Below are positions 1,244 through 15,024 of a DNA stretch of 64,000 nt, in pieces. How positions within the stretch are numbered: position 1 is the stretch's first letter; every line of letters begins with the position of its first letter. Made by a program: the position numbers and the translations under genes. The notes under the pieces were generated by a model. It had not been told where the DNA came from. It did not search any database and saw only the letters and a list, made by a program, of their open reading frames with translations. Source of the stretch: Nitrospirota bacterium (GTDB lineage: Bacteria > JACPQY01); contig JACPAV010000004.1 in assembly GCA_016180645.1 (NCBI GenBank), positions 181,409 to 245,408 on the forward strand, in the 5' to 3' direction.

Positions 1244-3187
1244 CTACTTCTCTCCGCGGGGGATGATGACGGGTGATCCTGTCTCCACGTAAGTGCGGAA
1301 GAACTCCTGGACTTGGCGGGAGGCGCGGTCGTCCTCGAAGACGACCCAGTGGCGCCCCTGTTCGTATTGCTGGTCGCCGCCCGTGAGCTTGACACCGGTC
1401 GGAACGGATACATTCAAAGAAACCGGGGGCGTCAACGGCTCCCTGCCCAACACTTGGAGGAACGGCACGTCCTTCATGAGAGGCGTGAGCATATCCACGC
1501 CGAGTGCTACGGCCAGAGCTTCGTTAGTGGAGGGAGGCAGATAGACGTCCTTGAAGCCCTCTGTCATGAAGACATGCTTGGGCGCGTCGGTATTGATCAT
1601 CACGTAGGGAGCATAGTTCACTGGATCGACCGGCTCGGTGACGGATTGAAAGAGTGTGAGGAGAAAGTAGAATTCGTCCACCGGCTCGCCCGCCACGCCG
1701 AACCAGGATTTCAACGTCTCCCCCGCTTGTTCGGGGGTCACCCCGAGGAGGTCGGCGATTTCATCATCGCCCTTGAACAGCCGGTCCTTCACGAAATAGA
1801 TCATGTTTCCACCCGAGCCGCTGAGCATCGCCGCCTTCACGTCCGGGTCGATCATGAGGTACGGCACGCCGGTCGTCGTCCCCTGCGAATGGCCCATGAA
1901 AAGGATCTTGTTGGCATCGAACGTGATGGGTAGTTTCTGGGTTGTGATCTCGGCGGGCACGACGAGCTTCCGGACGAGCAGCGATGTTTCAAGCGTATCG
2001 AAAGCGGCCTGACGGAGCAGATCGAGTGAGGAATTCACGTTGGTGAGATTCACCGTGAGCATGATGGCGGGGACATCGGAGGGATTTCGCGCGCCGTGGA
2101 GCGGTTGATCGATCGCGATGACCGCCGTATCGATCTGGGCGAAAAGGCACGGGAGGTCTTCATTCACGAAACTGAACCGGTCGCCTCCGGTTCCGTGCAT
2201 GTAGATGACAACGGGGAAGCCGGTTGACGGCGGTGCGGATTTCGGGAGCGAGAGGCCGAACGAAAGAGTTTCTTGCGTTTGGGGCTGAGGGGTTCCGTCC
2301 GGTGCGAGGACAAAGATCCCGGTTCCGGGGTCGGCGTAAGGCGCAGGTCCTGAGAGGAAGTTCGGTTCCTGGAACTTCCCTTCGTAAAGGTCGAAACATT
2401 CACTCGCCTTCTTGAGTTTCTTGGTTTGGATACTCGTGGCAGTTGGGGAGGGCAACTGGCGCAGGTACTCGGCCCCCTTCAGGAGTGGACCCAGCACGTC
2501 CTGGGTGGTGAATACAGCCGCGGCAGCGATGTCGTCGCCCTTCGCCAGCACGCGGGACCGAACGAACTTGAGGTCGGTGGCAAGATGGCCCTGCTCGGCT
2601 TGGAGGAAGGTTTCCATCGAGCCCAGGCTGAGCCCGTCGGCGTCTTCGACAGTTCGCGTGAGAACGGCGGCGTATCGGGAGGCGGGGCGCATCGGGAACC
2701 CCGGGAACGGGAGCAGCACGAGCGTATTCGCGGGCGAGAACTTGGTGGACTCCTTCAGAAACTTGATTAGAAGGGGTACTCGTTCGCCGAGATACGGGGA
2801 AGTGGGATCGACATTGACCAAGAGCGCCGACGAACCGGGGAGCAACGTATCGAGCGGCGTTTGCGGCAGTGTTGTTTCATCCAGCGGAGCGTTGAAATAG
2901 AAATAGACCGCCCCGCTCGTGCCGAATGCGCGGAAACGCGTTTCCACCTGCGGTAGAAACAACCTCAGAAGCAGATTCTCGTTTCGGCCCGGCAGCCGCG
3001 AGAGATCGACAAGCCCTTGCGCGTTCAATCTGGTGTCGTCCGGAAACGGCGCCGCGAAAAAATCCTCGGCAAGTCGCACCGGCTCGTAGTTCGCCCTCGT
3101 CGGGTTCTTCGCCGGATTATTTTCAGCCCCGCATGAGATTGCCACAACAGACGCGAATAGGCTGGCTGAGAAACGAAGGCATTTCAT
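1244..3187 (-). CDS. secreted alpha/beta-hydrolase-fold lipoprotein
   Basis: 647 aa. The N-terminus is a lipoprotein signal (hydrophobic run then VVAISCGAE, lipobox Cys at residue 19). It is followed by a PFPDDTRLN segment and a long N-terminal domain typical of large secreted bacterial hydrolases. A catalytic domain follows, with an oxyanion-type HGTGGDR segment and a nucleophile elbow GHSQGTTTG, as in serine esterases, lipases and depolymerases. The substrate is unknown. A distant paralog with the same layout lies at 32451-34349. The ATG is only 6 nt from a good -10 hexamer, so the mRNA is probably leaderless. Family assignment to the alpha/beta hydrolase fold is fairly sure; enzyme class is open. 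Confidence 0.82.
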   Translation of the reverse strand: MKCLRFSASLFASVVAISCGAENNPAKNPTRANYEPVRLAEDFFAAPFPDDTRLNAQGLVDLSRLPGRNENLLLRLFLPQVETRFRAFGTSGAVYFYFNAPLDETTLPQTPLDTLLPGSSALLVNVDPTSPYLGERVPLLIKFLKESTKFSPANTLVLLPFPGFPMRPASRYAAVLTRTVEDADGLSLGSMETFLQAEQGHLATDLKFVRSRVLAKGDDIAAAAVFTTQDVLGPLLKGAEYLRQLPSPTATSIQTKKLKKASECFDLYEGKFQEPNFLSGPAPYADPGTGIFVLAPDGTPQPQTQETLSFGLSLPKSAPPSTGFPVVIYMHGTGGDRFSFVNEDLPCLFAQIDTAVIAIDQPLHGARNPSDVPAIMLTVNLTNVNSSLDLLRQAAFDTLETSLLVRKLVVPAEITTQKLPITFDANKILFMGHSQGTTTGVPYLMIDPDVKAAMLSGSGGNMIYFVKDRLFKGDDEIADLLGVTPEQAGETLKSWFGVAGEPVDEFYFLLTLFQSVTEPVDPVNYAPYVMINTDAPKHVFMTEGFKDVYLPPSTNEALAVALGVDMLTPLMKDVPFLQVLGREPLTPPVSLNVSVPTGVKLTGGDQQYEQGRHWVVFEDDRASRQVQEFFRTYVETGSPVIIPRGEK

Positions 3188-12613: not shown

Positions 12614-12877
12614 ATGCCCATCGCGCAATCCAGGCTGACCGCCCAGGGGCAGATCTCGGTGCCCGCGGAGGTGAGGCGGAAACTCGGGGTCGGACCCGGC
12701 TCGATCCTGGAATGGGACGAAGCGGGCGAGAAAATCCTGGTCCGGCGGTCGGGGCGGTACACCTCGGAAGACATCCATCGGCAGATTTTCGCCGGGAGCG
12801 CGCCGCGGCGTCGGAGCACCGCAGAGATCAAGGAAGGCATCCGCCGGCACATTCGGAAGAGACATGCGGGCGGTTGA
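12614..12877 (+). CDS. AbrB/SpoVT-type antitoxin
   Basis: 87 aa. Residues 5-47 form a swapped-hairpin AbrB domain: SRLTAQGQISVPAEVRRKLG then GPGSILEWDEAGEKILVRR. The C-terminal tail is basic and probably wraps around the toxin. It overlaps the PIN-domain gene by 14 bp, so the two are co-translated as a VapBC-type pair. It likely represses its own promoter through the palindrome at 12583-12598. Confidence 0.88.
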   Translation: MPIAQSRLTAQGQISVPAEVRRKLGVGPGSILEWDEAGEKILVRRSGRYTSEDIHRQIFAGSAPRRRSTAEIKEGIRRHIRKRHAGG

Positions 12878-13247
12878 CACGAATGTTCTCGTCCGACTGG
12901 TGACCCGGGACGATCCGGAGCAAGTGGCCGCCGCGGAGTCGTTCGTGGAGCGCGGCGCTTGGGTCTCCCATCTTGTCTTGGTGGAGCTGTTGTGGGTGCT
13001 GGAATCTGTGTATGGGATTGGGCCGCGTGAACGCGCTATGACCGTGGAAATGCTACTCCATCACGACCGGTTGACGATCGAGGGTCCGAACGTGGTTTCC
13101 GCGGCGCTTGCGGTCTTTCGACGCAAGCCATCCCTGGGCTTTTCGGACTGCCTGGTGCTGGAGACCGCCCGAACAGCCGGGCACCTGCCCCTGGGAACCT
13201 TCGATCGCGCGCTCGGGAGAATGGACGGGGCTCAGCGACTGGCGTAA
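12864..13247 (+). CDS. PIN-domain toxin, VapC-like
   Basis: 127 aa, typical VapC length. Conserved acidic residues are visible: Asp5 in AVDTNVLVRL, Glu in VLVELLWVLE, Asp in GFSDCLVLE and Asp in GTFDRAL. These coordinate Mg2+ in PIN ribonucleases that cut tRNA or rRNA. It overlaps its AbrB-type antitoxin gene by 14 bp. Sequence appears intact. Confidence 0.9.
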   Translation: MRAVDTNVLVRLVTRDDPEQVAAAESFVERGAWVSHLVLVELLWVLESVYGIGPRERAMTVEMLLHHDRLTIEGPNVVSAALAVFRRKPSLGFSDCLVLETARTAGHLPLGTFDRALGRMDGAQRLA

Positions 13248-13315: not shown

Positions 13316-13344
13316 TTGACGCACCCCCGGTGGGCCGGTAGAAT
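13316..13344 (+). promoter_or_regulatory. promoter of the selenoprotein glutaredoxin gene
   Basis: TTGACG (13316-13321), 17-nt spacer, TAGAAT (13339-13344), then 6 nt to the GTG at 13351. This fixes the gene start upstream of the in-frame TGA and predicts a leaderless mRNA. Confidence 0.75.
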
Positions 13345-13350
13345 CCGCCT

Positions 13351-13623
13351 GTGGGGAACAGGGTTGTTGTCTACACAGCGAGCCTCTGACCGTATTGCAT
13401 CAAGGCAAAGGCTTTGCTGAAAAAAAGGAATGTCCCGTTCACGGAGATCAATATGGGTTGGGACGGACCCCTCTGGGATGAATTGGAGAAAAAATCCGGC
13501 ATGACCACCGTGCCTCAAATCTATCTCGACGATACCTGCATCGGGGGCCATGATGAACTCAAGGCCCTCATCGATTCCGGTCGCTTCGAAAAGGTGTTCG
13601 CCTCCGTTCTGAGATCGTCATGA
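13351..13623 (+). CDS. glutaredoxin, probable selenoprotein (Sec at TGA 13387-13389)
   Basis: Read through one in-frame TGA, the frame from GTG 13351 encodes 90 residues starting VGNRVVVYTASL, then Sec13, then PYCIKAKALLKKRNVPF. This is the glutaredoxin active site CPYC with the first Cys replaced by TGA. The rest of the fold is intact: TVPQIYLDD with the cis-Pro and IGGHDEL for glutathione binding. An in-frame TAG at 13339 leaves GTG as the only plausible start, and a near-consensus promoter ends 6 nt before it. A stem-loop downstream of the TGA fits a bacterial SECIS. The 3' end overlaps the response-regulator gene (ATGA). A standard caller would report only a truncated 69-aa protein without the active site. 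Alternative: a Cys-to-stop pseudogene. Grx selenoproteins are a known family. Confidence 0.8.
13390..13418 (+). promoter_or_regulatory. putative bacterial SECIS element
   Basis: Hairpin GCAAA (13405-13409), loop GGC (13410-13412), TTTGC (13413-13417), extendable by one G-U pair. The loop begins 20 nt after the TGA and starts with G, as SelB-binding bacterial SECIS loops do. The structure is inferred by eye, not folded by program. Confidence 0.55.
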
Positions 13624-14783
13624 GCGCCCGACCGATTGGCCGCATGGAAGCCGCCGGAGCCGGCCGGGTTTCTCCGGGTAAGATCCTCGTCGTCGATGAC
13701 GATGCCGCCCTTTGCGACACACTGAAGGATGTCTTCACGGGCGATGGTCATCACGTGGGGATAGCCCGGGACGGGAAGGCGGGGCTCCGCGAGCTTGCGA
13801 ACGATCATTACGACGTCGTCATCACCGATCTCAACATGCCCGAGATGGAAGGATTGGAACTGCTCTCCCACATCCGTAAGAGTCAGTTCGACGTCTGTCC
13901 CATCGTACTCACCGGCTTCGGAACCATCGAGGCCGCGGTGGAATCGATGAAGCTGGGGGCCTACGACTACGTGCTGAAGCCGTTCAACGTAAACGAATTC
14001 CGCGAGGTCGTCTGGAAATGTCTGGCGCGGGTTCGCGAGGAACGGGAGCACCCGATTCGCGTCGACCGGCTCAAAGCGGAGACGGCGGAGGGCCTCCTTG
14101 AAGCCTTGGAAGCCAAGGATCGATACACGCGCGGCCATTCGGAGCGCGTGGGCCGATACGCCCGGATTCTGGCCGAGGGGCTCAATTTGGGTGACGGAGA
14201 CGTGCGCCTGATCGAACAGGCGGGGCGGCTCCATGACATCGGCAAGATCGGAGTGCGCCTTGAACACCTCAACAAGAGGGGCCCCCTCACGGTCGACGAA
14301 CACGAGCTCTACAAGCTGCATGTCTCCTATGGAAAGACAATTCTGGACGTCATCACGCCGTTTCGGAACCTGTCGGAAATGGCCTATCACCACCATGAAC
14401 GATTCGATGGCAATGGGTATCTTGCGGGTGTTCAGGGCGCCGACATTCCGCTCGGTGGACGCATCCTCGTCATCTGCGACGGGTTCGACGCCATGACCTC
14501 CGACCGACCCTACCGCTCGCGTCTGCCTCTGGGTGTGGCGGTGCAGGAGCTTCTGCGCTGCTCAGGAACGCAGTTCGATCCTGACCTGGTTCAGGTGTTC
14601 GTGCGAAGACTCAAAGAGCTTCACCGTCCGGAAGAACTCGAACCGGAAGAGATCGTCATCGCCCGGGAAAGCTCGAAGGGCGGCCTCGGACCGCTGATCT
14701 TCACCAAGCGCGCGGTGGATGAGGGTGAAATCCCTGAGTGGGAATCCGACGGCCGGAAGACCGTGCCGTTCGAACGATACTAA
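13620..14783 (+). CDS. response regulator with HD-GYP-type output domain
   Basis: 387 aa. The receiver domain (about residues 20-140) has the acidic pocket DDD at 26-28, phospho-acceptor Asp70 in VVITDLNMPE and Lys120 in VLKPF. The output domain (about 155-350) has the catalytic HD at 205-206 in LHDIGKIG, and HHHERFDGNGYLAG at 257-270, where the GYP tripeptide reads GYL. HD-GYP proteins hydrolyse cyclic-di-GMP; whether this variant is active is open. The start overlaps the stop of the glutaredoxin gene (ATGA), so translation is probably coupled. No partner histidine kinase is adjacent. Confidence 0.9.
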   Translation: MSARPIGRMEAAGAGRVSPGKILVVDDDAALCDTLKDVFTGDGHHVGIARDGKAGLRELANDHYDVVITDLNMPEMEGLELLSHIRKSQFDVCPIVLTGFGTIEAAVESMKLGAYDYVLKPFNVNEFREVVWKCLARVREEREHPIRVDRLKAETAEGLLEALEAKDRYTRGHSERVGRYARILAEGLNLGDGDVRLIEQAGRLHDIGKIGVRLEHLNKRGPLTVDEHELYKLHVSYGKTILDVITPFRNLSEMAYHHHERFDGNGYLAGVQGADIPLGGRILVICDGFDAMTSDRPYRSRLPLGVAVQELLRCSGTQFDPDLVQVFVRRLKELHRPEELEPEEIVIARESSKGGLGPLIFTKRAVDEGEIPEWESDGRKTVPFERY

Positions 14784-14796
14784 AAGGAGTCACCAC

Positions 14797-15024
14797 GTGC
14801 CGATCTATGAATATGTCTGCAAGAAATGCGATCAGGAATTTGAGGAGTTGCTTCGATCAAGGGATGAAGTGGTCAAGTGTCCCGGCTGCGGAACGAAGAA
14901 GGTGTCCCGCCGGCTCTCGATCGTCGGTTTCAAGAGCGGAAGCACGTTCGTGTCGGCGAGCGGCGGCGGCGGCTGCGGCAGTGGGAGTTGCGGCGGCGGT
15001 TCCTGCGGATCCTGCTCGCACTAG
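14797..15024 (+). CDS. FmdB-type zinc-ribbon regulatory protein
   Basis: 75 aa from GTG 14797, which follows AAAGGAG by 7 nt. The N-terminal ribbon MPIYEYVCKKCDQEFEE with CPGCGTKKV later supplies two Cys pairs, the FmdB family signature. The C-terminal tail is Gly/Cys/Ser-rich and ends with four cysteines and a histidine (GSCGGGSCGSCSH in part), seen in many members of the family and of unknown role. It probably belongs to the glutaredoxin/HD-GYP transcript. It converges with the FAD enzyme gene, overlapping 4 bp. Confidence 0.9.
   Translation: MPIYEYVCKKCDQEFEELLRSRDEVVKCPGCGTKKVSRRLSIVGFKSGSTFVSASGGGGCGSGSCGGGSCGSCSH

Follow-up and report, generated by a model that had tools for sequence, protein, structure and literature searches.

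The window analyzed here is a stretch of 64,000 nucleotides from a Nitrospirota bacterium, and on its forward strand lies a reading frame that encodes a complete glutaredoxin if a single internal TGA is read through (Table 1). The full reading of the frame is VGNRVVVYTASL-TGA-PYCIKAKALLKKRNVPFTEINMGWDGPLWDELEKKSGMTTVPQIYLDDTCIGGHDELKALIDSGRFEKVFASVLRSS followed by the terminal TGA (13621–13623), and its translation is VGNRVVVYTASL-U-PYCIKAKALLKKRNVPF...TTVPQIYLDDTCIGGHDEL.... The internal TGA thus occupies exactly the first Cys position of the CPYC active site, as a first-pass annotation of this DNA had stated. That annotation also took both flanks of the TGA for glutaredoxin sequence, and indeed the profile PF00462 matches across it along its entire length (positions 1–60 of 60; 60.4 bits against a gathering cut-off of 22.9; E 2e-16). 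The protein query used carried one extra terminal residue from the true stop codon, which leaves the conclusions unaffected. Apart from the internal TGA the frame is intact for 77 codons, and 3′ of the TGA the codon-usage signal is found in the glutaredoxin frame alone (+21 vs −40 and −25 in the other frames). At the level of sequence homology, the predicted fold can be regarded as settled. The GTG proposed as the start is the only in-frame start after an upstream in-frame TAG (13339). Standard ORF calling, just as had been noted, sees no more than 69 residues starting from a TTG (13414–13623).

Table 1. Features of the glutaredoxin locus, in window coordinates
Feature	Position	Strand	Remark
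Sigma-70-like promoter, TTGACG-N17-TAGAAT	13316..13344	+	−10 box ends 6 nt before GTG
Predicted Sec-glutaredoxin gene, GrxC-like	13351..13623	+	90 aa with Sec13; GTG start, TGA stop
In-frame TGA, very probably read as selenocysteine	13387..13389	+	first Cys position of CPYC
Candidate bacterial SECIS hairpin	13404..13418	+	6 bp; loop GGC (13410–13412); 20 nt after TGA
Response regulator/HD-GYP gene	13620..14783	+	ATG overlaps glutaredoxin stop codon

The HD-GYP gene is probably co-transcribed with the glutaredoxin gene. Just upstream of the latter, at 12614–13247, there is a pair resembling an AbrB-type antitoxin and a PIN-domain toxin, for which the defence library gave no match. An FmdB-family zinc-ribbon protein with Cys residues is encoded at 14743–15024; elsewhere, members of this family with UxxU are on record as selenoproteins (PMC13188914). 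The window contains neither an Rfam match nor a tRNA.

The annotation further expected the organism to possess the selenocysteine (Sec) machinery and proposed a genome search for it. Searching the window's own assembly (4.72 Mb in 65 contigs, 97% complete, 2.6% contamination) family by family, we found all four components above curated cut-offs: selA (556 bits, cut-off 268), selB (a 737-aa ORF; 369.8 bits, cut-off 242), selD (356.9 bits, cut-off 125) and tRNA-Sec (73.3 bits, gathering cut-off 47; identified by ARAGORN as tRNA-SeC with anticodon tca). They are spread over four different contigs. Moreover, two other proteins of this genome are TGA-coded, both with SECIS-like hairpins that fit the bacterial model. 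One is SelD itself, with the TGA at the UxxK position. The other is a second glutaredoxin on contig C9 (L109:1486-1725), MMESRVILYTADG-U-QSC..., whose best matches are the YruB/Uxx-star families. The only further PF00462 protein is a Cys-containing monothiol CGFS glutaredoxin; the search with this profile thus turned up no dithiol glutaredoxin of the Cys type in the genome. Within the phylum the comparison comprised two genomes, the window's own included. The other one had no match to the Sec-glutaredoxin gene and no selB above cut-off, which at 84% completeness does not prove absence; Sec use may therefore be patchy within the phylum.

How is the TGA position conserved across genomes? We ran the pattern Y[TS]xxx-(TGA or TAA)-PYCxxAK over about 85,000 GTDB species genomes, including TAA so that nonsense mutations and chance matches would show up within the scan itself. 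The scan returned 85 stretches, 84 with TGA and one with TAA. Three of the TGA stretches (L034, L060, L076) and the TAA stretch (L067) turned out to be chance matches without a glutaredoxin. The ratio of TGA to TAA at the aligned codon in true glutaredoxin loci is thus 81:0. All 81 read on as glutaredoxins, one of them leaving the end of its stored stretch. As to conservation across the TGA, which the first-pass annotation had suggested as a check, homologues in many phyla have TGA, never TAA, at the aligned position and keep their downstream frames intact. In viral contigs we found no TGA form of the pattern; the Cys form was frequent there among the matches listed and was used as a control.

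According to the bacterial SECIS model, the loop has 3–9 nt with a G in its first two positions and lies 16–37 nt after the UGA, on a stem of at least 4 bp (PMC13188914). A hairpin with a G-starting loop had been pointed out 20 nt after the TGA. The hairpin is there, GGCAAA-GGC-TTTGCT, and fits the model, while a competing register is more stable: the minimum-energy fold is shifted and has an AAAG rather than a GGC loop. Every one of the 80 Sec glutaredoxin genes examined, counting that of the window, has a hairpin conforming to the model somewhere in the range. With the loop at 18–24 nt, hairpins occur in 77/80 Sec genes vs 19/100 Cys homologues, and strong hairpins in 63/80 vs 2/100. The Cys set, 100 homologues from viral contigs meeting the same sequence pattern, has a lower GC content (0.38 vs 0.48), which gives importance to a synonymous-codon control run within the Sec set. 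For the narrow position this control gave a median p of 0.01 over the Sec genes and 0.013 for the window gene. When the broad 16–37 nt model was combined with local codon usage, a hairpin as stable arose in 13.8% of the synonymous shuffles (p 0.138 for the window gene), so that single-sequence p values range from 0.013 to 0.138. Taken alone, the hairpin of the window copy is weak evidence. The GGC register is also used by nine other Sec genes, mostly from Gemmatimonadota and Actinobacteria (GGCCAA-GGA-TTGGCT), and in the selD gene of this genome a GGA loop likewise lies 20 nt after the TGA. We therefore regard the GGC register as the likely SECIS register. Covariation within the same-register set amounted to one double change relative to the window (47/500 shuffles).

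The consensus-spaced promoter reported upstream of the GTG is a real pattern, with 10/12 matches where 0.5 such occurrences are expected by chance in the region. Given the position of the −10 box, the 5′ end of the transcript would be expected to coincide with the start codon or to lie directly beside it. Across 244 kb of this contig, a spacing of exactly 6 nt between a strict −10 box and a candidate start stands out from the others (5 vs a background of 0.39 per spacing), and selD is preceded by TACAAT-6-ATG. Boxes with this spacing were observed at window positions 3187(−), 19673(+), 27939(+) and 40902(−), and at L246:17245(−). This exploratory analysis suggests that the organism uses leaderless mRNAs, some of them GTG-started, with that of the Sec glutaredoxin among them.

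Next comes the question of which glutaredoxin this is. With Sec read as Cys, the protein scores highest in NCBIfam against the glutaredoxin 3 equivalog TIGR02181, at 84.8 bits. This is just under the cut-off of 90, and we therefore call the protein GrxC-like rather than GrxC. It is nevertheless the best TIGR02181 match among the Sec proteins scanned, and an alignment shows that it keeps the GrxC signature residues (VP, GG and D). Its best solved relative is E. coli glutaredoxin 3 (1fov, E 1e-16). In the tree, one branch (99/92) separates the YruB-type Sec glutaredoxins, among them the UQSC protein from contig C9, from a GrxC side on which the window protein stands together with Cys GrxC proteins and the two UPYC proteins from Marinimicrobia; the window protein is resolved to this side and no finer. 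Judged by these sequence relationships, it is of the classical GrxC type, outside the YruB-type clade that holds nearly all Sec glutaredoxins found here. We recognized only three GrxC-like genes with UPYC in the scan, the window gene and the two from Marinimicrobia (L028, L031); genes without AK after PYCxx would have escaped the pattern, so there may be more. The Marinimicrobia genes represent a second lineage of GrxC-like UPYC Sec glutaredoxins, and one of the two genomes also encodes a Cys glutaredoxin. We found no close homologue of the exact window gene, the nearest being about 40% identical.

A single base separates TGA from TGC or TGT, and there is no close relative to compare with, so the locus might be viewed as a classical grxC whose first active-site Cys codon has mutated to a stop. 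However, the disruption would have hit exactly the residue that Sec replaces, in a frame otherwise intact and coding-like in codon usage, in a genome that decodes Sec; moreover, the recurrence of TGA to the exclusion of TAA at the same position in other phyla is hard to reconcile with decay. We consider a pseudogene very improbable. In a 65-contig draft genome of unknown coverage, an ordinary grxC might also have acquired its TGA through an assembly or consensus error at a Cys codon. Yet such an error would have to strike this one codon by chance, and it explains neither the SECIS-like hairpin nor the fact that the genome decodes Sec and encodes two further TGA selenoproteins, which makes it less probable still. 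A genome-wide code change, in which TGA stands for another amino acid, has nothing beyond the in-frame TGA in its favor. The position is that of the catalytic Cys, and stop-codon use refutes the idea: of the 49 large ORFs in the window, 25 end in TGA, more than in either other stop codon, and the code is therefore unchanged. Its probability is negligible.

We are thus highly confident that the GrxC-like gene makes a dithiol glutaredoxin with Sec in its active site (UPYC) through SelB- and SECIS-directed read-through of UGA 13. SelB would bring Sec-tRNA(Sec) to this codon as directed by the SECIS hairpin about 20 nt downstream, and the terminal UGA, which lacks that hairpin context, would still end translation. 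Sec would then be the nucleophilic residue of the active site. If the protein works like glutaredoxin 3 and the characterized Clostridium Sec-Grx1, its selenolate would attack disulfides in proteins or mixed disulfides with glutathione and be regenerated by Cys16 and/or glutathione. The genome has a glutamate-cysteine-ligase-like gene that scores below equivalog cut-offs, and a GSH-S_ATP match considered as a glutathione synthesis gene proved to be a RimK-type ligase; glutathione is thus no more than a candidate reductant.

More tentatively, and with rather less than even confidence, we propose that Cys changed to Sec independently in the glutathione-dependent GrxC lineage in this barely sampled phylum, with a SECIS register like that of distant Gemmatimonadota Sec glutaredoxins and with the Sec codon on a leaderless, GTG-initiated mRNA, where the UGA comes only about 37 nt into the transcript. 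The locus would offer a possible test case for UGA-Sec decoding on a leaderless mRNA. Gene callers overlook the active half of the Sec glutaredoxin. With this case, Sec use enters the record of the phylum, together with the co-occurrence of two Sec glutaredoxins from different subfamilies in a single cell.

Glutaredoxin, as the annotation had stated, is an established prokaryotic selenoprotein family. Its Sec form, with the motif UxxC, is experimentally verified (PMC13188914) and was listed in 2006 for Geobacter, Alkaliphilus and Moorella (PMC1794560), and for Grx1 of Clostridium oremlandii, with Sec13 and Cys16, a U13C/C16S mutant is named (PMC4479559). Sec glutaredoxins being both known and biochemically verified, the window gene adds to a known family. 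Grx1 of C. (Alkaliphilus) oremlandii resembles the window protein in that residue 13 is Sec and residue 16 is Cys, a likeness of numbering rather than of alignment; it comes from another phylum, and the window gene differs in its GTG start and probable leaderless mRNA. The PDB chain 4tr0, named glutaredoxin 3 and presumably from the same organism as Grx1, matches the window protein at E 2e-15. The Sec glutaredoxins of the YruB/Uxx-star type, which make up nearly all of the 81 loci, share with it UPYC, the TGA and a SECIS-like hairpin mostly 20–23 nt downstream, but form their separate clade and lack its TVPQI...GG.D signature. E. coli glutaredoxin 3, in contrast, shares the CPYC context, TTVPQI and IGG.D.L.AL, and has Cys where the window protein has Sec.
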